Shown here: in pieces, positions 1,868 through 17,381 of the stretch
How the letters are laid out: each line of letters starts with the position of its first letter
How positions within the stretch are numbered: the first letter of the stretch is position 1
IMG/VR virus record: IMGVR_UViG_3300025879_000135
Location: 1-21,002 of that record
Source: a virus
Length of the DNA stretch: 21,002 bases
Direction: 5' to 3' (one strand)
Translations under genes and position numbers: made by a program
Notes under the pieces: generated by a model
What the model saw: the letters and a program-made list of their open reading frames with translations, nothing else
Told to the model about the DNA's origin: nothing
Database searches by the model: none

Positions 1868-4800
1868 ATGAGCAATTTCACCAGTAAGACATTTAAAGAA
1901 ACATATCGTGACTTTTATGATAAAGAAAGCGGTTATCATCGTGTTTTATTCAATTCAGGTAAAGCACTACAAGCTCGCGAACTAAATGAGCTGCAGACTA
2001 TACTCCATGAAGAGATAGCGCGGTTTGGACGTAACATCTTTCGTGAAGGAGCCACAGTTAAAGCTGGTGGCTCAATAATCGACAACTCTAAAGAGTATAT
2101 CCGGCTGCAAGCTGGTACTCTGGTGCCCGAGAATATTGTAGGACAACAGTACCAAAATGCGCAGGGAATCAAGTTCATGGTAGAAGAGTACCATGAAGCT
2201 ACTGATGTAGATCCTCAAACATTATATGTTAGATACGTCGACACCTCTGCAGTAGTTGACACGAGTGTTCCTGCACGCGTCAACCCAAGCGAGATATTAA
2301 CGCCCGTAGGAGCTACAACCTTTCCTCTTACCGTAGCTTTAGATGGAGACGTTCCTGCTGTGGGTACTGGAACTAGTATATCCGTCAACGAAGGAGTTTT
2401 CTTCGTTGCTGGCCATTTCGTTCACTCTCCTCAGCAATCAACTTACATCGACAAGTATAATTCCAAGCCAACCGTGGACTTTGGATTCCAAGTAGTGGAA
2501 AGTGTTATTACGGAAGGAGAAGACGTTACTCTATACGATAATCAGGGTGCTTTTCCAAACACCGCAGCCCCAGGTGCTCACCGATACAAGATTGAATTGA
2601 CTCCCACTACCCGCGACGCTCTCACAGAGGAAGAAAACTTTGTGTTTGTAGCTCGGATTGTCAATGGGGTAATCACGCGTGAAGTTGACGCTAAAGATGA
2701 TTATAATATCATTAACGACTTACTCGCTACTCGTACCAAAGAAGAATCGGGGGATTATGTAGCCCGCGAATTCAAAACAATAATGCAGGACAAGGATGAT
2801 CTAACTCTAAATCTAGAGGTCACCCCAGGAACTGCTTATGTCGATGGCTACCGATTAGACTTCGGTACTACTAATTTAGATGTCGGGCGCGCTCGTGCGA
2901 CCGGTACCGTAAACAATGATAGCGTAATAGCCCAATACGGTAATTACGTGATCATCGACCCTACCCAAAGTACCGGATTGAGCGAGTTAACCTCATTCGA
3001 TCAAGTTAGCTTGGGTAATGGGGGGACTGCAAACGTTCGTGCTATTGAAAACGTAGGCGGTGAATATAGGCTTTATCTTTTCAATATACAAATGCCTGTA
3101 GGGTCCAACTTCAGAGACGTAACAACTATCACTGGAGTGAGCGGTTCGTGCACATTAAAAGTTCCTGGCCTACTTGGCGGAATCGACAACACGTTACTGT
3201 TTCCACTTCCTCACTCACGTCCTCAAGGTATTGTTGATACTAATTTTACCTCACAGCGTACAATCGAAGCTGTGGCAAACAGCTCTGGTGAAATACTAAT
3301 TTCCGATACTATTAATGGGTCATATCTTCCCGTAATATTCCAGACTGGAGTAGGTCTTGCCACTGGGTGGAGTACAACATCAAATAAAATTACTGGGCTC
3401 ACGCCTTCGACTCCATACATAGTCACATATTACTTTGAATCATCTAACCCCAGGGTTAGATCTAAAATCCCAGTCACTATAACAGAAAATGTTACTATTG
3501 GTGACGGCGTAGCCCCTGTACAAGGCCCAACATTTATACAGGGTACTACAATGTGGCGAGTGGAAAACAGAACTGGAGCCGCAAGTATTGTGTGGAACGG
3601 TGAGCTGATTACTACAGCTAGTGGTGCATCAGATATCACTACCCTTAATGCTGAAGGATTCCAGTATACTCGCGGAAGCACTCAAACGCCCACGTTTACA
3701 ACTACCTTTACGGCTCCAACATCTACCAATCTAAATTATGTAGACTTCGTAGGTAACTATGTCCGACCACTAGACTTTACTAGGGTCAGAGCCAGCATTT
3801 ACGCTGCGCCGGGTTTTACGCGTGTGGAAGAAGAATCATACTCTAGATTTTTAGAGATTGAACTTAGACCAGGTGAGCCTGACTTTCTAGAGCTACCTTT
3901 CACCCGAATGGCAACTAACACTTATGCTGGTCCAGGCCGGGCAAGTACATTCGTCGGAAACTATACGCGTAGCTCCTCATATACCCGATCTAGAGCAAGT
4001 ACCTACACCGGTTACTATACTCAAGGAGAGGGAAGCACTACGGGCGAGAATTATACCTATTATGCCGTATCTCGTCAAGCGTTGGCCAGTAGCCTAGATC
4101 TCTCCGCTATCACGTTAGATTATGCTGATGGCACCAAATTAGTTCAGATCGTTGATGCTTCAGGTAACGACGTTACTGGGTCATTTGAGTTTGATGGCGG
4201 TCAGCGTGATAATTATTACGGACCAATTAAACTTAGACTGAAATCTGGATTAACTGCAGAAGCAGGTTCTCAGTATACTGTTATTTTTCAGCACTACTTC
4301 CATGGGGACGGGGACTATTTCAGTGTCGAGTCGTACCCTACAATTTACAGTAACGTACCGTCATATAAAACATCTTCTGGTGATACAATACAACTGACTG
4401 ATGTATTAGACTTCCGTCCGGTAATTTTAGCGGATGGTATTCAGTCGAGTAGCATCAACACACTACCAAGAAACAAAAGTATTATCAGCGTCGACGCTAC
4501 TTACTACTTACCGCGTATAGACCTTCTGGTAGCTAATACTCTAGATTCGAGGGGTAGACTTGGTACTGGACGCCTACAAATAATTGAAGGTGAGGCGGCG
4601 CTAGATCCCCGTCCACCTCAAGTGCCGGTTGGTTCGCTATCATTATTCCAGATAGATCTGAATGCTTATACAGCAGATAAGAATGATTTATCTACTACTA
4701 GGATTCCGCACAAACGGTTCACTATGCAAGACATTGCAAAGTTGGAAGACCGAATCGATACCTTGTTTGAGCTTACCACACTTAGCTTACTCGAAGCAGA

Positions 4801-7204
4801 TACAGCAACACTGGCGGTATTGGACGAGCTCGGTAATAACCGTACCAAATCAGGATTCATAGCTGACAACTTCAGATCACTAAACTTCTGTGATTTGAAT
4901 AACCCCGATTATCGCGCTTCAGTTGAACCAACAAGTGGAGAGTTGATGCCGTCGTTTAGAGAGAACTCTGTGCGTCTCGCTATGAGGCAAAGCTCGGCTG
5001 TTAAGAAAGGGGATGTTGCAGTACTGCCTCATGTTAACACGTTACTAGCTAGTCAGCTACTGGCCACTGGCAGAATGAATATCAATCCGTTCGCTGTAAT
5101 TACGCAAACCGGTCACATGACATTATCTCCAGCTACGGATGAGTGGGTAGAAGTACGTCAGCTGCCCGAGATTATGCAATCCAACGTACGTCGAACCAGC
5201 ACCGATAGAACTGGTGGTGGGCGCGGTGGTAGGGTTACATCGCGAATCGTAGAAACCACTATCCAAGAGTTTTTAGGAGAGCAGGTTGTTGACGTTGAAG
5301 TAGTGCCGTTCATGAGATCTCGTGAAGTTTATTTCCGGGTCGAAGGACTGAGACCAAAAACTAGAATGTTTGCCTTCTTCGGTAACCAATCTGTGCAGCC
5401 ATGGGTGCGTCAAGAAAATGTATTTAGACTTTTCTCCGATAACCCAAGAGAGTCCGGAAGTGAGTTTGCTAGCGCTAGCGGACACCCGAATGGGTCTACA
5501 GAGCTAGTAACAGACGACAACGGTGTATTGATTGGGTCATTCTTTGTACCAAACACCCCCAGTATGTCATTCCGTACTGGTCAACAAGAATTTAAATTAC
5601 TTGACGTTAGCATCAACGATGACGATATGGCTATTTCATCATCGAGAGCTAACTATGAATCGGTCGGTCGTATTGATGCGGTACAACGCACCATTCGCAG
5701 TACACGAATCGTAGAAACTATCTCTGAGCGCATAGATCCTCTCGCTCAAACGTTCTTCATCGATCAAGTCGAGAATCCTAATGGGTTGTTCCTAACCCAT
5801 GTTAAAGTATTCATGGAGAGTAAAGATAGCGCGATTCCGTTACAAGTACAAATCCGACCCGTAGAAAATGGCATACCAACTACACGAATCGTCCCTGGAT
5901 CAAATAAGTTTGTATCCCCTTCGAATATCAACGTGGTGCCATTAACGCCCGATACTGATATAGCAGATGTTCGATTGTTTGGTGGTACAGATATTGATTT
6001 CGATGAACCTGTGTATTTAACCCCAGGTGAAGAGTATGCCATCGTACTGTTAGCCGAATCGGTTGAATACAACGCGTACGTTGCTGAAACCTACGAGTTT
6101 ATCCTTGGGCCGAATCAGCGAGAAGGTAGAGTGGATAAGCAGCCAACTCTTGGCTCACTATTCTTATCACAGAATGGTTCTACTTGGACACCCGATCAAA
6201 CGAGAGACTTAATGTTTGAGTTGTATCGCGCTGAGTTTGATACAACTGCTAATGTAGTGTTATCTAACACAGAAGTACCTAAGATTACATTAGGTCCAAA
6301 TCCTATCTCAGTTGAGAAGAATAGTGCGTTAGTAAACATTGCCCATCAGGGTCATGGATTCAACGCAAATGACGAAGTTGAGATTAGTGGCGTCCAGGGT
6401 ACTATTGGAGGAATCCCTGCAGCAAGTTTAAATAGTACCCATCTAATAGCAAGTGTGTCTTGGGAAGGATATCAGATTAACGTGGGGACAGTAGCCACCG
6501 CTTCTGTACTAGGAGGAGGCTCTTCAGTTGTAGCAAGTGAGCAGATCATGATTGACGAGATGACTCCTAACATTGCCAACATCACTCCTAACGGAACACG
6601 TATAACGGCAACAGTAACTCAAACATCTGGAGCCTCGTTTGGAGGAAACCGTAACAACCCTCTGTATAATGGTGCATATTCATCTGTGGGCTCAAAGCAG
6701 GTATTCATCAACGATCTCAACCTGAACGATAGACCGACGATTATAGCATCGCCTGATGACATGACCTTCAACATCACTCTATCAACCACTGATACTAAAG
6801 TATCTCCCTTGATTGATCTTCAACGGGTATCAGTAATGACACTAGAGAACGTTATTGATATGGGAACGGCTGCTCAGCATATTACTACACCTGTAATCCT
6901 AGATGAGTCAGCTGTAGGGCTTAAAATACTATTTTCGGCCCATCGGCCAAGTACAGTCGAGTTTGAGGTTTATGTTAAAACAGCAGCAGACGAATCTTCA
7001 CTAGAGGTATCTGAGTGGGTGTTGGTTGACGCTGATAATAACATACCGAGTGACGAGAGTCGAAACGTGTTTAGAGAATATTCATACACCATAGACACTG
7101 ATGATCAATTCAATATATTCCAAGCTAGGGTTGTAATGCAATCAACCAACTCTTCGAAGATTCCTATCATCAGCGACTTCAGAACAATAGCGTTGGCTGT
7201 TTAA
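1868..7204 (+). CDS. Giant DUF4815-type baseplate/tail structural protein with Tyr/Arg repeat insertion
   Basis: This is a 1778-residue virion protein. The N-terminus has the hallmark DUF4815 segment 'FNSGKALQARELNELQTIL' (about residues 28-46) and 'FREGATVKAGG' (58-68). 'TPGTAYVDGYRLDFG', near residue 318, is also typical of the family. In T4-like marine phages, genes of this type lie next to gp8 and are annotated as baseplate or tail-fibre proteins. The rest is beta-rich with no transmembrane segment. The C-terminal 150 residues, including 'FRTIALAV' at the end, look like the usual family end. Residues about 619-730 hold an unusual insertion of Tyr/Phe-Arg-Gly tetrads ('FVGNY', 'YTRSRASTYTGYYT') also found in three other genes here. 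The Shine-Dalgarno AGGA overlaps the gp8 stop, implying coupled translation. The exact baseplate position is unknown; gp10-like or gp7-like are possible alternatives. Confidence 0.8.
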   Translation: MSNFTSKTFKETYRDFYDKESGYHRVLFNSGKALQARELNELQTILHEEIARFGRNIFREGATVKAGGSIIDNSKEYIRLQAGTLVPENIVGQQYQNAQGIKFMVEEYHEATDVDPQTLYVRYVDTSAVVDTSVPARVNPSEILTPVGATTFPLTVALDGDVPAVGTGTSISVNEGVFFVAGHFVHSPQQSTYIDKYNSKPTVDFGFQVVESVITEGEDVTLYDNQGAFPNTAAPGAHRYKIELTPTTRDALTEEENFVFVARIVNGVITREVDAKDDYNIINDLLATRTKEESGDYVAREFKTIMQDKDDLTLNLEVTPGTAYVDGYRLDFGTTNLDVGRARATGTVNNDSVIAQYGNYVIIDPTQSTGLSELTSFDQVSLGNGGTANVRAIENVGGEYRLYLFNIQMPVGSNFRDVTTITGVSGSCTLKVPGLLGGIDNTLLFPLPHSRPQGIVDTNFTSQRTIEAVANSSGEILISDTINGSYLPVIFQTGVGLATGWSTTSNKITGLTPSTPYIVTYYFESSNPRVRSKIPVTITENVTIGDGVAPVQGPTFIQGTTMWRVENRTGAASIVWNGELITTASGASDITTLNAEGFQYTRGSTQTPTFTTTFTAPTSTNLNYVDFVGNYVRPLDFTRVRASIYAAPGFTRVEEESYSRFLEIELRPGEPDFLELPFTRMATNTYAGPGRASTFVGNYTRSSSYTRSRASTYTGYYTQGEGSTTGENYTYYAVSRQALASSLDLSAITLDYADGTKLVQIVDASGNDVTGSFEFDGGQRDNYYGPIKLRLKSGLTAEAGSQYTVIFQHYFHGDGDYFSVESYPTIYSNVPSYKTSSGDTIQLTDVLDFRPVILADGIQSSSINTLPRNKSIISVDATYYLPRIDLLVANTLDSRGRLGTGRLQIIEGEAALDPRPPQVPVGSLSLFQIDLNAYTADKNDLSTTRIPHKRFTMQDIAKLEDRIDTLFELTTLSLLEADTATLAVLDELGNNRTKSGFIADNFRSLNFCDLNNPDYRASVEPTSGELMPSFRENSVRLAMRQSSAVKKGDVAVLPHVNTLLASQLLATGRMNINPFAVITQTGHMTLSPATDEWVEVRQLPEIMQSNVRRTSTDRTGGGRGGRVTSRIVETTIQEFLGEQVVDVEVVPFMRSREVYFRVEGLRPKTRMFAFFGNQSVQPWVRQENVFRLFSDNPRESGSEFASASGHPNGSTELVTDDNGVLIGSFFVPNTPSMSFRTGQQEFKLLDVSINDDDMAISSSRANYESVGRIDAVQRTIRSTRIVETISERIDPLAQTFFIDQVENPNGLFLTHVKVFMESKDSAIPLQVQIRPVENGIPTTRIVPGSNKFVSPSNINVVPLTPDTDIADVRLFGGTDIDFDEPVYLTPGEEYAIVLLAESVEYNAYVAETYEFILGPNQREGRVDKQPTLGSLFLSQNGSTWTPDQTRDLMFELYRAEFDTTANVVLSNTEVPKITLGPNPISVEKNSALVNIAHQGHGFNANDEVEISGVQGTIGGIPAASLNSTHLIASVSWEGYQINVGTVATASVLGGGSSVVASEQIMIDEMTPNIANITPNGTRITATVTQTSGASFGGNRNNPLYNGAYSSVGSKQVFINDLNLNDRPTIIASPDDMTFNITLSTTDTKVSPLIDLQRVSVMTLENVIDMGTAAQHITTPVILDESAVGLKILFSAHRPSTVEFEVYVKTAADESSLEVSEWVLVDADNNIPSDESRNVFREYSYTIDTDDQFNIFQARVVMQSTNSSKIPIISDFRTIALAV
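3722..4060 (+). repeat. Tyr/Arg/Gly tetrad insertion within the DUF4815 protein
   Basis: About 110 residues of the DUF4815 protein change character abruptly to degenerate tetrads: 'YVDFVGNYVRPLDFTRVRAS', 'YTRSRASTYTGYYT'. Aromatic or Arg residues recur every four positions, as in the repeat proteins at 9014, 9550 and 11817. The flanking sequence is ordinary beta-rich virion protein, so the segment looks like an inserted module rather than part of the core. Confidence 0.7.
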
Positions 7205-7406: not shown

Positions 7407-9002
7407 ATGGCTTTTCAAATAATCAATCTAGCTGATCACATCAACGCCGCTGTTGATAAGATGAATGAAAACTTCGACCTTATCAGCTGGACGGCGGATA
7501 GCGATGCCATCAACAATACCATCAATAATTATATTGATAGCGATGTCATCAACAATATTATCAATAATTATATTGACAGTAGCGTAATTAATCAATTCAT
7601 AAACAGCGACACTATCAATAACTACCTCGATCAAAGTACTATAATTAATATTATAGATTCGGATTTCATACAATCCATAATACTTAATTTGAATCTTGAT
7701 GGTTCTATAGACTCGAGTCAATTTTACAGTATATTAGCTGAGACTGGCTTAGTAGCTAGAGTAGATAATGTTGAAGGGGGCTTAGTATTATTAGCCCAAG
7801 ACTATACCAATCTATCAACCAACTACACTAATCTAGATTCAGATGTATCAGCACTGTCGACTGCTTATAGTGGGTTAACTTCCCAGATATCTGTGCTCGA
7901 TAGTGGCATTGAGGTATTATCACAGGATCTGGTGAGTTTAGAAGCTCAATTTACTGGCAGTATCGAATTGGATTCCGCAGTAATTGTGCAAGCGATTGGT
8001 GGCGCACTCACCACATTAGATACTAGAATAAATGCTAACTCAGATGAGATCAGTGTTGTCTCTCAGGCCGTTACGAACTTATCAGCTGACCTATCATTAC
8101 TTGATAGTACATTATCCCCCCTAATACAAGCTAATTCAACAGCAATTTCTAATCTTGTAGCATCTGCCACAGCTAACTCGGATGAGCTTGAAGTACTATC
8201 CGGCCGGTTTGATAGCTTCCAAGTAACTCTACAAAATGCCATTGATAGTGGATTAGAGATCAACCCAGATGATGTTGCTGCAGCAGTGGGTGGTATTACT
8301 GATGATTTATATACTAGAATTTACGCAAACTCTGATAAAATCGGAGTTGTATCTGCATCAATAACAAGCCTAAACTCTAAGCTAACGTTACTCGATAGCG
8401 CTGGGGCATTAACCGATGTAATTGCAGATGCGGTGTCCGATCTCAGAGCCGAAGTTGTAGCAGGCGACAGTGGCAATTTAAATGCTATTTCCCAGTTAGA
8501 GGTAACTCTTAACAACAAAATCGATAGTGATGTCCAAACTGCGTTGACAACATTATCAAATACATATGTTACGGATGGAGAGCTCACTACAGCTGTACAG
8601 AACGCAACCACATCACTAACACAAACGATTAATAATACGGTAGCAACCGCCGAGCAGACCCTCAACACTAGAATAGACGGTATCGATCTTAGTGTTGAAG
8701 TTGGGTATACTCTAAACTTAGATGCTAATGGTCATGTAGCTGGTATTGAATTTAACAATAATGGCGAAACTGCCGCTATGTCCATCTTTGCTGATAAGTT
8801 TGCTATAGTAAACTCATCGGACAGTGCTATTCGGCCATTTACCGTCGACGGTGACCAGATTCTACTATCAAACGCTACTGTTACAGGATCCCTAAATATA
8901 AGCTCTAGTAGTACGAACGGGTCCATGACAATGACTAATGACTTAATGCAGATATTTGATGCTGGTGGTAACCCCCGCGTTAGATTTGGCCGGCTAGCAT
9001 AA
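7407..9002 (+). CDS. Fibre-like virion protein with DUF1983-type C-terminal domain
   Basis: The 531-residue protein has three parts. Residues 1-30 ('DHINAAVDKMNENFDLIS') resemble the N-terminal attachment helix of phage fibre-like proteins. Residues 31-90 are Asn/Ile/Asp-rich repeats ('DSDAINNTINNYI', then 'DSDVINNIINNYI'), encoded by a 39-nt tandem duplication. Residues 100-430 are long Ser/Thr/Leu/Asp heptad-like stretches ('LDSDVSAL', 'LLDSTLSPLI', 'ANSDEISVVSQAVTNL') that suggest a trimeric coiled-coil shaft. From Val432 to the end is a DUF1983-type domain ('NLDANGHVAGIEF', 'FADKFAIVN', 'LSNATVTG', 'IFDAGGNPRVRFG') closely similar to the end of the first gene in the window. The ATG directly follows the previous stop, with GGAG upstream. 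The likely role is a tail fibre or tail-tip component that uses its end domain as a knob or adaptor; the exact role is inferred. Confidence 0.75.
   Translation: MAFQIINLADHINAAVDKMNENFDLISWTADSDAINNTINNYIDSDVINNIINNYIDSSVINQFINSDTINNYLDQSTIINIIDSDFIQSIILNLNLDGSIDSSQFYSILAETGLVARVDNVEGGLVLLAQDYTNLSTNYTNLDSDVSALSTAYSGLTSQISVLDSGIEVLSQDLVSLEAQFTGSIELDSAVIVQAIGGALTTLDTRINANSDEISVVSQAVTNLSADLSLLDSTLSPLIQANSTAISNLVASATANSDELEVLSGRFDSFQVTLQNAIDSGLEINPDDVAAAVGGITDDLYTRIYANSDKIGVVSASITSLNSKLTLLDSAGALTDVIADAVSDLRAEVVAGDSGNLNAISQLEVTLNNKIDSDVQTALTTLSNTYVTDGELTTAVQNATTSLTQTINNTVATAEQTLNTRIDGIDLSVEVGYTLNLDANGHVAGIEFNNNGETAAMSIFADKFAIVNSSDSAIRPFTVDGDQILLSNATVTGSLNISSSSTNGSMTMTNDLMQIFDAGGNPRVRFGRLA
7497..7574 (+). 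repeat. 39-nt tandem duplication in the fibre gene
   Basis: Two copies (7497-7535 and 7536-7574) encode the 13-residue units DSDAINNTINNYI and DSDVINNIINNYI. They differ at only a few bases. Shorter decayed copies ('DSSVINQFI', 'NSDTINNYL') follow immediately, suggesting growth by repeated slippage or unequal exchange. Confidence 0.85.
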
Positions 9003-9013
9003 AGGATTAAAAA

Positions 9014-9550
9014 ATGGCTGATTTTACAGTATCGTATACAAGGACATTATCATTCGCAGGGAACTACGTAACGTCGTTCACTCGAAATCGTGTATCTTCG
9101 TATAGCTCCGATACAACAAATACATTTTCTGCAACCTTTACGCGACTGCGCCCGTCAACCTATACCAGGAATAGACAAAGCACTTATTCCGGAACATTTG
9201 TTAGAACTTTTTCTGGGTATTATAGTAGAGCGTTTGCGGGTAATTATTCCCAATCATTTGCTGGGACTTATACTAGAACGTTCACCGTTTCTAGAGTCTC
9301 TGCATACACCAGAGACAGAACACAAAATTTTACTAGAACACGAACGTCGGTAACGAGCTCTCGACTTTTCGTTCGTTCATTTTCCAGATATCAATACTTT
9401 ACCCCATTTTACACTAGAGTGGGTAGTCAAGGATATTTTGCTGCGGTGTATACGGCTTATTATGGTGGGACCTACAGTAGGACTATATCGCGTACTGGTA
9501 CAATAACATCTATATTATTCACCGCTCCTAATGGGGGGATTGAGCCGTAA
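9014..9550 (+). CDS. Small Tyr/Arg/Gly tetrapeptide-repeat protein
   Basis: The 178-residue protein is made almost wholly of tetrads of the form [Y/F/R]-[S/T/A/V]-[R/G/S]-x: 'FTRNRVSSYSSD', 'YTRNRQSTYSGTFVRTFSGY', 'YSRAFAGNYSQSFAGTYTRT'. The repeats fade after about residue 118 into a Tyr/Phe-rich tail ending 'ITSILFTAPNGGIEP'. No signal peptide, membrane segment or Cys is visible. The Shine-Dalgarno AGGA (9004-9007) lies 6 nt before the ATG. The stop overlaps the next start by one base (TAATG), implying coupling. Arg is encoded mostly by AGA/AGG, unlike the repeats of the 11817 gene. I do not recognise a characterised family. Position among fibre genes suggests a virion surface or adhesive component. 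Confidence 0.75.
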   Translation: MADFTVSYTRTLSFAGNYVTSFTRNRVSSYSSDTTNTFSATFTRLRPSTYTRNRQSTYSGTFVRTFSGYYSRAFAGNYSQSFAGTYTRTFTVSRVSAYTRDRTQNFTRTRTSVTSSRLFVRSFSRYQYFTPFYTRVGSQGYFAAVYTAYYGGTYSRTISRTGTITSILFTAPNGGIEP

Positions 9551-10401
9551 TGCCTGAATCCTATTATACAAGAACCTCCACATTTACTAGAATTAGCACC
9601 CGAACAGGAGGCACTACAGCTGACTTTTCAGGTACTCCAAGAGTCGTAGATTATACTAGGACTAGAGCAGGTACTGCTAGTACTCGACTAATATCATATG
9701 CGAATTTTGAGGATGGTAACGAAAGTACTGCGTTTTATTCTAGGTCATTCGTCGGCGATTTCATTGGAAACTTCACCGGTAATTATGTTAGATCGTTTAG
9801 TAGATCTAGAACCGTAGAGTCAATTGGGTATTACTCGAGAAACTATATTGGGTATTACACAAGAGCGTACCAAGGGTTTTATACAGTATCATCAGCTGGG
9901 GGATATTCGCGGTTATTTGCCGGTAACTATGCCCGATCATTCCTAGGAGTGTATTCCAGGGGGTACAGCGGATTATATACTAGAAGCTCTACGAACACAT
10001 TTAGTGGAACATTCACCAGAACTTCTGTAGGCGACTATACAAGAACTACGACTCGTGTTAGTACAATTTCTGGTGGTACTGGAGCTCCTCCTACGTATAC
10101 TGGTGCGCCAGCATCAGATGCTGAATATGGTCTGGTGGTATATGGACCAGATGGTGTAACTGAAATTATCAACCCTACAACTAGAGTATTAAACCTAGTA
10201 TTTTACGGTAGTGTTTCGGTTGGACCATACTCAACGACAAATATTACAATAGAAGATGTAGGGGATCCTACCAAAGTTATTGTAGCGTTTGGTTTCAGGT
10301 ATACTTCTATAAGCTATTCTGTATCAGGCAACACACTGACAGTGATAAACGATCGCTCTACCGCATCAGCTCCAGTTATAATAGCAGCGAGGATAGCATA
10401 A
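9550..10401 (+). CDS. Tetrapeptide-repeat protein with C-terminal 'YGLxV' domain
   Basis: This is a 283-residue two-part protein. Residues 1 to about 175 are Tyr/Phe-Arg-Gly tetrads ('SFVGDFIGNFTGNYVRSFSR', 'YYSRNYIGYYTRAYQGFYT', 'LFAGNYARSFLGVYSRGYSG'). After a short Gly/Pro/Ala linker, residues about 190-283 form an ordinary globular beta domain beginning 'AEYGLVVYGPDGVTEIINPT' and ending 'SAPVIIAARIA'. The same opening ('YGLVVKSFDG...EIIQLDTERGLVNYVI') begins the next gene, so the two share a domain. The start codon overlaps the previous stop and follows a G-rich run (ATGGGGGGATT) that can act as Shine-Dalgarno. A plausible reading is a fibre whose repeat shaft carries a receptor-binding or capping tip; this is inference. 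Confidence 0.75.
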   Translation: MPESYYTRTSTFTRISTRTGGTTADFSGTPRVVDYTRTRAGTASTRLISYANFEDGNESTAFYSRSFVGDFIGNFTGNYVRSFSRSRTVESIGYYSRNYIGYYTRAYQGFYTVSSAGGYSRLFAGNYARSFLGVYSRGYSGLYTRSSTNTFSGTFTRTSVGDYTRTTTRVSTISGGTGAPPTYTGAPASDAEYGLVVYGPDGVTEIINPTTRVLNLVFYGSVSVGPYSTTNITIEDVGDPTKVIVAFGFRYTSISYSVSGNTLTVINDRSTASAPVIIAARIA

Positions 10402-11790: not shown

Positions 11791-11818
11791 ACTTTTAAAA
11801 AAGAGAGCGATTAAAAGT
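11791..11818 (+). promoter_or_regulatory. Hairpin enclosing the ribosome binding site of the giant repeat gene
   Basis: ACTTTTAA (11791-11798) pairs with TTAAAAGT (11811-11818), an 8-bp stem with a 12-nt loop. The loop holds the likely Shine-Dalgarno (AAGAGAG, about 11801-11807) and the right arm includes the first two bases of the GTG start at 11817. Both arms are in the late transcript. The stem is AT-rich, so it may be marginally stable. Translation damping is possible but unproven. Confidence 0.45.
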
Positions 11819-14800
11819 GTCAGCATCTAGTATCCCATTAAAAATACTGAATTCAGATGGTGACCTGAAGGAATTTACGCCGTTAGAAGAAAATTATCTG
11901 GCGTATGCAGTAGGACAAGCATTACTAAACCCAACTGATGTTGGTTCACTAACGCTTAGCCCAACGGGAGTTGCTGTCGGTTCTTATGTTGATACATACT
12001 TCAACCAGAGCCCCGGAACTCACCCTGCCAGCCAAATCACTTCTGGTTCAACTACTACGACCCTTCGTCAGGTAGCGGGACCAGCAACTGAAAGCGGCCA
12101 AAACATTCCTGTAGGTTACTACGCCCAAGATCCTAATCCCGGTTTCTACGAAATGGTAGACGCGGACTTATCCAACTTAGCTAATCGTGTACTCGGTAAC
12201 ATGGTCCAGAATGACTATATCGGTACCTATCGATTGGCAGCATCTTCACCTGGATCAGATTACTCTATCCATATAGCGAACGTCTTCACTGACACGCGTG
12301 GGGATGGGGTATCTACAAACTATCACATCTATATTCGTAACTCAATGACGGCCGTTGGAGCTGTTCGTCCCGTTCGCGTACGATACGACGGCTCGAACTT
12401 TGGTGGCTTCCAAGAGATGACTGATGCTGAGATCCAAGACGTGTTGGGTCAGCGTATCAAGACATTGAGATCGTCAGTTGGTAGTATTGGTAGCTATCAA
12501 TTACTTTCTTCAGCTCAAGGCGCACCCATCGGTGGTGGTACGTGGAAGGTTGTTGGTACAGCCGTAAACACCAAGCTAACGACAGCTCAAATCGATTATA
12601 CGCGCAGCCGCAACTCGAGCTACGTACAGACCCGAGTTTCAGCCTACACGCGTAACAGAGTGTCTACCTTTAGTGGTACATATTCACGCACTACAAGCCA
12701 AGTATTTGTCGGCAATTACGCTGGTAACTATAGCCGCGACTTCGCCGGCAATTATTCACGAGGTTTTGTAGGGGAATATACTGGCGATTTCGTAGGAGTA
12801 TATTCTCGTTTACGCTCTTCAGCTTATTCTGATAACTATGCCCGTAATCGTATTTCGACTTACGCTGGCACATATTCACGCAATCGTGTAAGTACATATT
12901 CGCGTAACCGAGTCTCAGCCTATGCTGGTACGTATGCTCGTAATAGGGTGTCGTCTTATGCTGGCACATATTCGCGTAACCGCGTCTCAGCCTATGCAGG
13001 CACGTATTCACGCAATCGCGTAAGTACATATGCTCGTACTCGTCTCACGGCATTTTCTGCCGACTACACAGGCGTATACACGCGTGCACGCGCATCTGTT
13101 TATACACGAGCTCGCGTTTCAACTTACTCTGCTGACTACACTGGCACGTATTCCCGTGCTCGGGTCTCTGCATACTCTCGCGCGCGCACATCGGCGTATG
13201 CCCGTGACCGTGTAACCGACTTTGCTGGTAACTTTATTGGTAACTATAGCCGCAACTTCGTAGGAGATTACTCTCGCGGGTTTGCTGGTAACTACGCGCG
13301 CGGCTATGCTGGTAACTTTGTCGGTAATTACGCCACAACATATACTGGCGACTTCGTAGGTAACTATGCACGTGGGTTTGTCGGCGATTATGTTGGCGAC
13401 TTCGTAGGCAACTATGCTCGTACCAGGGTAACGAACTATACGCGCGATGACGCTGCGACATTAACCTTTACTCGAGTACTAGCGTATACTGGTAACTATT
13501 CAACTGCCTATACCCGTGACCGTGTAACCAACTTCACCACGAGTCCATCGTATTCACGTACACGTATTACAAACTATGTAATATCGCCATCGTATTCACG
13601 TACACGTATTACAGACTATGCAATATCGCCATCATACACGCGCGCTCGTGCCGCTACGCTAGATTATACGCGTACCCGAGCTGCGAGCTACACTGGTGAC
13701 TATGCCCGTACAGCATACTATACTGGCAACTATGCTCGTGTAGCATACTATACTGGCAACTATGCTCGTGTATATTACTATACCGGTAACTACGCTCGTT
13801 CATTGACTTACACTGGTGACTTCGTAGGTAACTATACTAGAACTGGTGCAGTAGCTTATACCCGTAATAGGGCTGCTATAGGGTATTATTCGCGAAATCT
13901 GTCGTACTCTAGAACTGGAACATCATACTACGTTGGTCCTCCAAGTCCACCAATAGGGCCAGATCCTGGTGATCCTCAGATATACACACGAACCGCCACT
14001 ACATATTATTCGCGAACTGTAATATACACGCGCACAGTAACATACGCTGGGAACTATGCTCGTAATGTAACATATGATTATACTAGGACGAGAGCTACTA
14101 ACTATACCACCGTCCTAGGTTACTCACGCGATCGTGCTTACTATCCAGCGTATTCTCGTGATCGTGCTTACTATCCAGCGTATTCTCGTGATCGTGCTTA
14201 CTATCCAGCGTATACTCGAGTTCGCGCAGCTAGCTATGTAGGAAACTATACTAGGGCAGTAACATACACTGGCAACTATGCTCGTACGTTAATTTATACT
14301 GGCGACTTCGTAGGTAATTATGCTCGTACGTTAACTTATACTGGCGACTTCGTTGGCAACTATGCTCGTACGTTGGTTTATGCAGGAAACTTCGTAGGCA
14401 ACTACGCTAGAGCTTATGTTGCGGACTATACACGTACTGGGTATTATACTCGCGTTAGCTCGTACATCGGGGATTTCGTCGGTGACTTTGTTGGAGAGTA
14501 TGCTAGAACTTCGGTTCGTACAAGCGTTCGTACCCGTAGTAGCGCATATGCTCGTACTCGTATTACAGACTACGTTGGCGACTTTACACGTACAAGTACG
14601 CGCACTCGATACTCCGCGTACGTTCGTACTCGCGTTTCAGCTTATGCTCGTACTCGTTCTAGTGCTTACGCTAGAGATCGTGTAACGAACTTTGCTGGTA
14701 ACTTCATTGGCAACTATGCTCGTACCTTCGCAGGTAACTATGCTAGATCGTTTGCTGGTGAATACGTAGGTAACTATGTTGGCAATTATGCGAGAGCATT

Positions 14801-15386
14801 TACTGGAAATTATGCTAGATCGTTTGCTGGTGAATACACAGGTAATTATGTGGGCAACTACACCGGCGACTTCGTTGGCAACTACAGTCGTGCATTTGCT
14901 GGTGAATACTCAGGTAACTACAGCAGAACATTTGTTGGTGAATACTCCGGCACATACAACAGAACATTTGTTGGTGAGTACTCTGGTAACTATACTCGCG
15001 GATTCGCTGGAAACTATTCTCGTGGCTTTGCTGGCGAGTATATCGGAAACTATTCGCGCGGATTCGTTGGGGATTATGTAGGCAACTACAGTCGTGCATT
15101 TGCTGGTGAATATACAGGCAACTACACTAATGTATTCTCACGCACCCGCGTTAGCGCATACTCTCGTGCGCGTACATCATCGTATACCGATGATTATGCC
15201 CGTAACCGTGTATCAACATATGTAGGTGAATACGTTGGGGCATACGCCAGAGGCTATGCTGGAAACTACTCTCGAGACTTCGTGGGCAACTACTCACGAG
15301 CGTTTGTTGGTAACTATGTTGGTATGACTATCCAGCCAACGTTCAACATTGTTGAGACGTATACGTTGTATGTAAGGGTTGCCTAA
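11817..15386 (+). CDS. Giant Tyr/Arg/Gly tetrapeptide-repeat virion protein
   Basis: The protein has 1189 residues and a GTG start, and is preceded by an exact late promoter. Residues 1-260 are a normal globular head ('LKEFTPLEENYLAYAVGQAL', 'GSYVDTYFNQSPGTHP', 'SGSTTTTLRQ') like N-termini I recall in T4-like marine phage structural proteins. The head includes an internal duplication (residues 109-145 and 197-233: 'GFYEMVDADL' against 'GFQEMTDAEI'). From Tyr261 to about Tyr1167 the chain is tetrads [Y/F/R]-[S/T/A/V]-[R/G/S]-[N/D/T/A], in two main flavours: 'YSRNRVST' and 'YARGFVGD'. Register is kept for roughly the first 70 tetrads, then two-residue spacers appear. A Pro-rich break lies at residues 707-721. 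The last 20 residues ('MTIQPTFNIVETYTLYVRVA') are non-repetitive. No Cys or membrane segment is seen in the repeats. Function is unknown; a fibre shaft, whisker or adhesive surface protein is plausible. Confidence 0.85.
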   Translation: MSASSIPLKILNSDGDLKEFTPLEENYLAYAVGQALLNPTDVGSLTLSPTGVAVGSYVDTYFNQSPGTHPASQITSGSTTTTLRQVAGPATESGQNIPVGYYAQDPNPGFYEMVDADLSNLANRVLGNMVQNDYIGTYRLAASSPGSDYSIHIANVFTDTRGDGVSTNYHIYIRNSMTAVGAVRPVRVRYDGSNFGGFQEMTDAEIQDVLGQRIKTLRSSVGSIGSYQLLSSAQGAPIGGGTWKVVGTAVNTKLTTAQIDYTRSRNSSYVQTRVSAYTRNRVSTFSGTYSRTTSQVFVGNYAGNYSRDFAGNYSRGFVGEYTGDFVGVYSRLRSSAYSDNYARNRISTYAGTYSRNRVSTYSRNRVSAYAGTYARNRVSSYAGTYSRNRVSAYAGTYSRNRVSTYARTRLTAFSADYTGVYTRARASVYTRARVSTYSADYTGTYSRARVSAYSRARTSAYARDRVTDFAGNFIGNYSRNFVGDYSRGFAGNYARGYAGNFVGNYATTYTGDFVGNYARGFVGDYVGDFVGNYARTRVTNYTRDDAATLTFTRVLAYTGNYSTAYTRDRVTNFTTSPSYSRTRITNYVISPSYSRTRITDYAISPSYTRARAATLDYTRTRAASYTGDYARTAYYTGNYARVAYYTGNYARVYYYTGNYARSLTYTGDFVGNYTRTGAVAYTRNRAAIGYYSRNLSYSRTGTSYYVGPPSPPIGPDPGDPQIYTRTATTYYSRTVIYTRTVTYAGNYARNVTYDYTRTRATNYTTVLGYSRDRAYYPAYSRDRAYYPAYSRDRAYYPAYTRVRAASYVGNYTRAVTYTGNYARTLIYTGDFVGNYARTLTYTGDFVGNYARTLVYAGNFVGNYARAYVADYTRTGYYTRVSSYIGDFVGDFVGEYARTSVRTSVRTRSSAYARTRITDYVGDFTRTSTRTRYSAYVRTRVSAYARTRSSAYARDRVTNFAGNFIGNYARTFAGNYARSFAGEYVGNYVGNYARAFTGNYARSFAGEYTGNYVGNYTGDFVGNYSRAFAGEYSGNYSRTFVGEYSGTYNRTFVGEYSGNYTRGFAGNYSRGFAGEYIGNYSRGFVGDYVGNYSRAFAGEYTGNYTNVFSRTRVSAYSRARTSSYTDDYARNRVSTYVGEYVGAYARGYAGNYSRDFVGNYSRAFVGNYVGMTIQPTFNIVETYTLYVRVA
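13542..13625 (+). repeat. 42-nt tandem repeat in the giant gene
   Basis: Two near-identical 42-nt copies (13542-13583, 13584-13625) encode SPSYSRTRITNYVI and SPSYSRTRITDYAI. A diverging third copy follows (SPSYTRARAA). The unit is three tetrads plus a Ser-Pro-type dipeptide and marks the point where the tetrad register first breaks. Confidence 0.85.
13701..13820 (+). repeat. 30-nt tandem repeat in the giant gene
   Basis: Four 30-nt units (13701, 13731, 13761, 13791) encode variants of YARVAYYTGN. Copies one and two differ at three bases and later copies diverge further. Each unit is two tetrads plus a two-residue spacer. Confidence 0.85.
14130..14213 (+). repeat. 30-nt perfect tandem repeat in the giant gene
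   Basis: Copies at 14130-14159 and 14160-14189 are identical. A third from 14190 is identical through 14213 and then diverges. They encode DRAYYPAYSR. The identity over more than two copies indicates very recent expansion or assembly-sensitive slippage. The unit lacks Gly and contains Pro, unlike neighbouring tetrads. Confidence 0.9.
14295..14420 (+). repeat. 42-nt tandem repeat in the giant gene
   Basis: Copies at 14295-14336 and 14337-14378 encode YTGDFVGNYARTLT and YTGDFVGNYARTLV. A more diverged third (14379-14420) encodes YAGNFVGNYARAYV. The unit is three tetrads plus a dipeptide. Confidence 0.85.
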
Positions 15387-15503: not shown

Positions 15504-15965
15504 ATGGCTACTAAAAAATGGCTTGATAATGCGTTCTGGGAAACAGATGAAAAGCAACAGCTTAATTGTATTCTAGAAATCGTTGACGATGAGGGGCGCG
15601 AAGTTCGACAGGTTATGAAGCTGAATCGTACAGACCGTGAGGGTAATCCTAACGCGATGTTCGAAGAGGTAGTTGAGGCGCTGGGCGAAGAAGCAATTGA
15701 TCGAGAGACTTCAGATCGAGTTACGCGGAAGAAAGCAGAAGCTGATGAGAATAAGCAGCGCGACTTAGAACATCAGAAAGCGCGTAAGCTCGAGAAGTTA
15801 TTTAACTATAAATTAGAAGCATTTGAAGTTGATGAGATTAAAGCATCTAAAAACCGTGCGCTCAAGGGTAAGCTGCGCCGCGCTAAATCGAGAATTGAAG
15901 TTGATTTATATTCAATTATGATTTTACAAGAAGCTCTTGAGGCCGGGACTGATGGAAAAGAGTAA
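15504..15965 (+). CDS. Charged helical protein of unknown function
   Basis: The 153-residue protein is rich in Glu, Lys, Arg and Asp. Residues 1-60 ('KKWLDNAFWETDEKQQLNCI', 'VDDEGREVRQVMKLNRTD') look like a small alpha/beta region. Residues 65-150 are predicted mostly helical ('VTRKKAEADENKQRDLEHQK', 'IKASKNRALKGKLRRAKSRI'). I recall similar proteins of this size in T4-like marine phages without assigned function. GGAG at 15490-15493 is the Shine-Dalgarno, 10 nt before the ATG. It overlaps the glycosyltransferase start by 14 nt, so the genes are translated together. No good late octamer precedes it; TATATAAC near 15452 is only a poor match. Confidence 0.7.
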   Translation: MATKKWLDNAFWETDEKQQLNCILEIVDDEGREVRQVMKLNRTDREGNPNAMFEEVVEALGEEAIDRETSDRVTRKKAEADENKQRDLEHQKARKLEKLFNYKLEAFEVDEIKASKNRALKGKLRRAKSRIEVDLYSIMILQEALEAGTDGKE

Positions 15966-16677
15966 GGGATTTGTTATAGTTGCGAGCAGAAATCGCAACT
16001 TTTATCTATACGCTATTAATCTCGCTGAATCCATTAGAGATTATTATGAAGACTGTAACATTTGCTTAGTTACAGAGGAAAGGTTTATTGACGATCGTGG
16101 TTACGATGTTGCTGATGATGTTATCTTCTGCGACGACCACTATCGCGCTAAGTTATGGGGTATGGCGAAATCACCATATGACATAACAATGTATATTGAT
16201 GCTGACATGGAATGTGAGCACGAAGATATTATTAAAGTATGGGATGAGATGAAAGACTATGATATGGTTTTCTCTGAACTTACTGATGATCGTGACTACA
16301 TCTACGCTGAGCGGGATTTTGACACCCCAGAGGGTAAATCTAAATTCATACTTTGCGGTGGTGTTTGTTTATACGATATGTCTAAGCCCATTGTTCGTGA
16401 GTTCATGCAAGATTGGTGGGATTTGACTCATAAGCAGATGAACGATACTTGGTGGCCTGATGGTTATGCTGACTCATTAAAATCTTGGGATCAGTTTAGC
16501 TTGTGGTGGTTGACCAATAAAGAAGAAAAATATAAAGATCTTAACATTGGAATCTTCGATGACGATTTAAGATGGAACTATTACAACGCACTAAATTGGG
16601 CGAGAACTCAGCCAGAAGGACCCGTAATTTTACGTCACTTCTCTGCTGGCTTAGAAAAGGATAAACCGATCTTATGA
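15952..16677 (+). CDS. GT8-like glycosyltransferase
   Basis: This 241-residue protein has features of nucleotide-sugar transferases of the GT-A fold. The N-terminus is beta-alpha ('GFVIVASRNRNFYLYAINLA'). A DxD motif lies in 'YIDADMECEH' (Asp83-Ala-Asp85), which binds the metal and nucleotide-sugar. A Gly-Gly-rich segment 'FILCGGVCLYD' and a C-terminal 'HFSAGLEKDKP' (His229) resemble the HxxGxxKP motif of GT8-type enzymes. It should transfer a sugar in the host cytoplasm; the donor and acceptor cannot be told. The ATG at 15952 has TTGAGG 9 nt upstream and overlaps the previous gene by 14 nt. A TTG at 15937 is a less likely start. Its stop overlaps the next start (ATGA). Its place in a late cluster beside the giant Tyr/Ser/Thr-rich protein makes virion glycosylation a possibility. 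Confidence 0.75.
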   Translation: MEKSKGFVIVASRNRNFYLYAINLAESIRDYYEDCNICLVTEERFIDDRGYDVADDVIFCDDHYRAKLWGMAKSPYDITMYIDADMECEHEDIIKVWDEMKDYDMVFSELTDDRDYIYAERDFDTPEGKSKFILCGGVCLYDMSKPIVREFMQDWWDLTHKQMNDTWWPDGYADSLKSWDQFSLWWLTNKEEKYKDLNIGIFDDDLRWNYYNALNWARTQPEGPVILRHFSAGLEKDKPIL

Positions 16678-17381
16678 CACAGATTAACGAATCATATGTA
16701 AAGCACGTGGATGTCAATAACCCAGAGCTGCTTGATATTTTAAACGAATACTCCCAACTATACACGTGGGACGGGCTCGAGGAACATTGCCACCTAACTG
16801 CGGCCGAGCATATTCTTCAACGTCCTCATTGGATGTCTGACGAGTATCTCCAGCAGGTTATGGATCAGGGCGAAGCTCATGAAGGCTTCCCCGATATGAT
16901 AGTAGCCTATAACTTCAAACTTTCGGAGCGCGCTCACACATTCTTTAAGAGTGATGCTGATCCAGTATTCAAGCGCGACTTCACTAACAAGTTGGGTGAG
17001 CTTAACGACCGAATGATGAACTTCTTGTCTGTTAAGCATAACGCATTATGTGCCATCTACCCTCCAGGTGGATTCATTTCATGGCACAACAATGCCAATG
17101 CTCCAGGGTATAACCTAATTTTTACCTGGTCGGAAACGGGCGATGGTCACTTCTCTTATGTTCACCCCGAGACAAAGGAAGTTGTCAAGTGTGAAGATAC
17201 CGCTGGTAAGTGGACTTGTAAAGCCACATACTTCGGTTCACATGAAGAGAAAGAAAAGCAGATGTACCACGCTGCTGAAAGTGAATGTTGGCGTGTTACA
17301 GTTTCTTATGTGTTCGATACGACAGATACTTCAGCTGAATTCCGAGAAATGGTCCTAGAGGACATATCTGCTGGGGCTTAA
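16674..17381 (+). CDS. 2OG-Fe(II) oxygenase-like protein
   Basis: The 235-residue protein has a C-terminal half with the layout of 2-oxoglutarate/Fe(II) dioxygenases of the prolyl-hydroxylase type. It has 'YPPGGFISWHNNANAPGYNL' with His138 as candidate first iron ligand, beta strands 'IFTWSETGDGHFSYVHP', a Trp-Tyr-Phe-Gly segment, then 'MYHAAESECWRVTVSYVF' with His199 as distal iron ligand and Arg207 as the 2OG-binding Arg. The second ligand would be Asn140 (HxN) rather than the usual Asp (HxD), so activity is uncertain. Similar 'GWHTN-PGYN' proteins are known to me in marine T4-like phages. The N-terminal 90 residues have no recognised motif. It overlaps the glycosyltransferase by 4 nt (ATGA), so the two are co-translated and may act on the same target. 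A hairpin and late promoter follow. Confidence 0.65.
   Translation: MTQINESYVKHVDVNNPELLDILNEYSQLYTWDGLEEHCHLTAAEHILQRPHWMSDEYLQQVMDQGEAHEGFPDMIVAYNFKLSERAHTFFKSDADPVFKRDFTNKLGELNDRMMNFLSVKHNALCAIYPPGGFISWHNNANAPGYNLIFTWSETGDGHFSYVHPETKEVVKCEDTAGKWTCKATYFGSHEEKEKQMYHAAESECWRVTVSYVFDTTDTSAEFREMVLEDISAGA

Follow-up and report, generated by a model that had tools for sequence, protein, structure and literature searches.

A clade-specific tetrapeptide cassette nested in a DUF4815 baseplate-type protein

Why should a baseplate-type protein contain the kind of short aromatic repeat that separate proteins of the same virus carry in long arrays? The question is raised by positions 1 to 21,002 of virus record IMGVR_UViG_3300025879_000135, the 21,002-nucleotide stretch analysed here and called the window. 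The gene concerned (1868-7204, + strand, 1778 aa) lies directly 3' of a gp8-like baseplate wedge gene recognised in Pfam and PHROGs searches (534-1859). Beyond it lie a tail-tip-like fibre gene (7407-9002) and three + strand genes for free array proteins: a short protein of 178 aa (9014-9550, array at residues 3-161, 178 bits), one of 283 aa with a C-terminal beta-type tail domain (9550-10401, array at residues 4-190, 175 bits), and a giant protein of 1189 aa (11817-15386, array at residues 260-1169, 1357 bits). A beta-type tail protein and a tail assembly chaperone are also encoded in the window. The fibre gene contains a 39-base tandem repeat at 7497-7576, coding INNYIDSDVINNI-type 13-residue units. 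An earlier note on this DNA had described a repeat module inserted in an otherwise normal DUF4815 protein, and had proposed that it either docks the free repeat proteins or was spread by recombination.

The assignment of the 1868-7204 protein to DUF4815 is firm. PF16075 matched with 188 bits, against a gathering cut-off of 30, phrog_358 matched residues 12-1493 with 1067 bits, and a PDB homologue was found in 9euf chain 0 (E 3.5e-35); a literature search returned no paper for PDB 9euf or for phage C48C1, which is used below for comparison. VrlC is regarded as an integral part of a double-layered baseplate, and a variable host recognition cluster adjoins it (PMC7029224). Compared with the VrlC/DUF4815 proteins of T4-like cyano- and pelagimyophages, Ackermannviridae and Herelleviridae-type phages, the window protein is homologous over its full length, at both ends, and the gene order gp8, VrlC, tail fibres is the same. 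Unlike those proteins, it adds a domain (residues 541-617 and 723-748) and a tetrapeptide cassette. At another locus (L058, 3888-9271) the DUF4815 protein is encoded as two adjacent ORFs of 1260 and 534 aa.

We then asked how far the repeat signature extends in the DUF4815 protein. The reading frame and the motifs quoted in the earlier note are present, but a Tyr/Phe/Arg period of four over about 110 residues was recovered only in part. Across residues 618-731 strict F/Y period-4 was at chance, with 3 pairs at lag 4 where 3.1 were expected (permutation p 0.59). A four-position profile, [YFR][TSAV][RG][TNDA], trained solely on the three free array proteins of the window, gave a different result. 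Residues 685-718 (block C; 3920-4021, + strand) scored 48 bits, above all of 300 composition-preserving shuffles of the region (mean 15, maximum 33-34), and a weaker second block, residues 623-652 (block N; 3734-3823, + strand), scored 25.9 bits in the profile scan. The cassette of the window virus scored 48.0 bits (shuffle maximum 33.8), and those of two relatives, L006 and L014, scored 63.5 bits (shuffle maximum 40.0) and 66.8 bits (shuffle maximum 44.7). Since the profile beats the shuffles whereas strict period-4 does not exceed chance, the signature is real but limited to two blocks, each some 30 aa long. The profile match thus bears out the claim that the baseplate-type protein and the separate proteins have one kind of module in common. 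Comparison of block C with 30-aa windows of the giant array gave a mean BLOSUM score of 48; its resemblance to the rest of its own protein was far weaker, with a mean of 16 and a maximum of 27. The two blocks are separated by a non-repeat middle of 32 aa. Because block N is more similar to block C (61) than to any giant-array window (maximum 52), these similarity scores suggest that the blocks may either derive from an ancient internal duplication or pair as strands.

An alignment of 19 DUF4815 homologues revealed that the window protein contains two nested insertions, an outer one formed by residues 541-617 and 723-748 and an inner one at about 618-722. The first part of the outer insertion (3488-3718, + strand) was found only in the window virus, L006, L014 and L151, plus L009, in which it is about 32% identical; over its last part (4034-4111, + strand) the carriers can likewise be aligned with L009. 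The inner insertion is the cassette itself (residues 618-722; 3719-4033, + strand), whose profile score exceeds that of shuffled sequence and which is missing from L009. In this empty-site relative, which has the appended domain without the cassette, YTRGDFQV runs straight into QESQYTFYEI. The remaining homologues lack 157-205 residues at the insertion site. The term "inserted" is therefore borne out by L009, whereas "otherwise normal" is not: the cassette sits in a further domain, overlooked in the earlier note, that is absent from nearly all DUF4815 proteins. Residues 541-748 had no match among 50,697 phage records (BLAST with the low-complexity filter on), and Pfam and PHROGs searches of the appended domain returned nothing firm. 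GTW...YTLYVR-like motifs had hinted that this domain might be homologous to the one that carries the array in the giant protein, but profile comparison rejected such a relation (hhalign probability 0.1% with the arrays removed).

To place the insertion among related viruses, DUF4815 proteins were sampled both through the giant array protein and through DUF4815 itself, giving 129 proteins with both flanks aligned. The cassette was present on six of these 129 contigs, which represent three distinct viruses: the window together with L005, L007 and L008 (one virus, 99.9-100% identical), L006, and L014. An extra carrier, the truncated contig L151, was recovered by a search with the domain itself. 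The cassette was absent from 71 DUF4815 proteins without a visible free array, many of them on short contigs, and from 52 encoded at loci that do have free array proteins, including those of C48C1 and L009; free arrays evidently have no need of a counterpart in the baseplate. Twenty of the DUF4815-seeded loci extend for 8 kb or more downstream; arrays were seen in 9 of these and not in 11, and none of the 20 had the cassette. In the tree the four carriers form one clade (support 100/100), with L009 as its sister (100/100) and the C48C1 group outside. Either the cassette arose once within the four-member clade, or it is older and L009 has lost it. The short array proteins of the 9014 and 9550 type were found, where the sequence is long enough, in exactly the five-member group of carriers plus L009, unlike the giant array, whose relatives are widespread. 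Because related viruses do without it, the cassette is an optional, clade-specific add-on of a small set of T4-like viruses and not an essential docking site.

These distributions bear on the proposed homotypic docking, in which strand pairing or Tyr/Arg contacts would let the cassette recruit or template the free array proteins (9014, 9550 and giant). According to the earlier note, the cassette should occur only alongside free array proteins. This was so in all three carriers that could be assessed (the window virus, L006 and L014; L005 and L151 are too short), and no cassette was seen in a phage lacking every repeat protein among these same three. However, the carriers form a single clade, so that this co-occurrence counts as one event and not as a correlation. 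Docking would also fit the sequence grammar shared by cassette and arrays, the presence of two short array proteins in exactly the clade with the appended domain, and the maintenance of the cassette blocks by selection (see below). Yet the cassette is missing from L009 despite its full set of three array proteins, and from C48C1 and many others despite their giant arrays; where present, it matches the arrays of its own virus no better than those of other viruses. We consider docking unlikely, though still worth keeping in view.

Recent recombination, by which the cassette would have been copied from an array gene without acquiring a special role, fared worse. Array genes are repetitive DNA and arrays occur in several protein architectures, both of which would favour copying. 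At the DNA level, however, the similarity of the cassette to its own arrays was no higher than after synonymous-codon shuffling (16 against a shuffled mean of 15.7, and 19 against a shuffled mean of 19.6), and the cassette is common to four diverged lineages, with its blocks under purifying selection. The DNA test speaks against recent copying, which we regard as very improbable; the same comparison leaves an ancient copying event as a possible origin.

The conservation of the cassette among carriers is uneven. Block N is 50-73% identical and residues 700-722, which include the end of block C, are 74-83% identical, a level like that of the protein core. Between them lies a hypervariable middle (residues 653-699; 3824-3964, + strand) that takes in the initial 15 residues of block C, with 19-49% identity over residues 653-684 and 20-40% over 685-699. 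In this middle pN was 0.38-0.56, as compared to 0.09-0.17 in the flanking core, i.e. three to four times the core value; with pS near saturation, this excess fits positive selection and relaxed constraint equally. Judged from these contrasts in identity and pN, the repeat blocks are kept by purifying selection and the middle is hypervariable.

What structure such a cassette could adopt was approached by AF2 modelling. Strands were predicted at residues 598-606 and 730-738, on either side of the cassette, with pLDDT of about 54-71, while the cassette itself scored about 28-47 (very low). In L044, a distant relative of the giant protein, the array is similarly placed between two long strands (residues 246-266 and 402-424) that close the last carrier domain, with high confidence on the strands and a pLDDT of about 35 on the array. 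These models only suggest a hairpin-tip design common to the cassette and the giant-array carriers, because the carrier domains have no sequence relation. When the carrier model was compared with PDB structures, nothing significant was matched; with the DUF4815 model, matches were limited to an Ig-like region further upstream (model residues 13-88), the best having Z 6.7 and 1.9 A over 61 residues. In the array proteins themselves (window 11817-15386; L044 9986-11263) the array separates the two beta-strands that come last in the final carrier domain, and the closing strand (YTLYVRVA-like) is the end of the protein.

The low pLDDT values, over the cassette as over the arrays, would be expected if the cassette were a disordered low-complexity spacer, a linker rich in Tyr, Arg, Gly, Ser and Thr without defined structure; such a linker would likewise produce a variable middle. 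Against this, the low confidence came from AF2 runs on shallow alignments with no oligomer modelled, and block C is conserved like a fold core. The giant array also keeps a register that a disordered linker would not need: of the gaps from one aromatic residue to the next, 88% are even, as compared to 45% after shuffling, and 76% are divisible by 4. The excess of even gaps over shuffled sequence speaks for ordered beta structure in the arrays, although within the cassette just 9 of 16 gaps are even. Slips in the giant array (12576-15323) are mostly of 6 or 8 residues, so that the strand-face register is kept and the exact period of four is not. A disordered spacer thus appears a rather poor explanation. 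We favour, with some reserve, the reading that the cassette is a clade-specific exposed arm on the baseplate protein, possibly an extended beta-hairpin. An ancestor of the window clade would have acquired the accessory domain (residues 541-617 and 723-748), in which the cassette of about 105 residues now sits between two predicted beta-strands in the window virus and three relatives. The conserved tetrapeptide blocks would form the stem of the arm, probably as an extended beta-hairpin, and the hypervariable middle its tip, which may point away from the baseplate, in the direction of the fibres or the cell surface.

If this reading holds, the locus illustrates how a core baseplate protein can gain an exposed, locally hypervariable arm built from the repeat units of separate fibre-type proteins, and L009 offers a natural empty-site comparison for the cassette. 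Should the arm touch the host or the fibres, the cassette would be a defined, removable adaptor.

Two conserved genes follow the giant array gene on its 3' side. The first (15937-16677) is glycosyltransferase-like: its DxD is invariant, and a minority of its homologues match GT2/GT8 families weakly in Pfam; the second (16674-17381, 235 aa) has an invariant HxN...H...R and is oxygenase-like by motif alone. Linkage was scored on 55 array loci with at least 1500 bases past the last visible array gene, one of which (L006) ends too early. Of the 54 loci that could be assessed, 53 have the glycosyltransferase-like gene after the giant array gene, the only real exception being L071, an array locus that has room downstream and lacks the gene. 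At array-less DUF4815 loci with 8 kb of downstream sequence the gene is far rarer, being found at 3 of 14 against 34 of 40 with arrays (Fisher p 3e-5, the loci being related and hence non-independent); at the three array-less loci that have it, weaker array-like proteins adjoin the gene. Because the gene tracks array loci, the arrays may be enzymatically modified, and modification of Tyr/Arg arrays becomes a testable question. A further step, that the arrays and the small baseplate copy form a glycosylated surface module whose small acceptor part was moved onto the baseplate protein in this clade, is a speculative suggestion that we think unlikely to hold.

Comparable repeats occur in other phage proteins. 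Giant array proteins such as that of phage C48C1 (141011-151054) have the [YFR][TSAV][RG][TNDA] unit in common with the cassette, but hold hundreds of array residues as compared to its two short blocks, on carrier domains unrelated to the appended domain by profile comparison. Literature searches turned up no relevant account of phage-tail repeats of the tetrapeptide or tyrosine-rich kind. In L071 (1535-5749) an array is fused with a relative of the 10401 tail protein in one ORF of 1405 aa. The structural protein AOO09386.1 from the virion of cyanophage S-RIM2 has period-4 [VL]-T-G-N repeats, with a period like that of the cassette; its repeats are aliphatic and without Arg, and gave a marginal 46 bits with the aromatic profile. 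These aliphatic repeats (L149, 3405-9143) are a possible cousin of the aromatic arrays.
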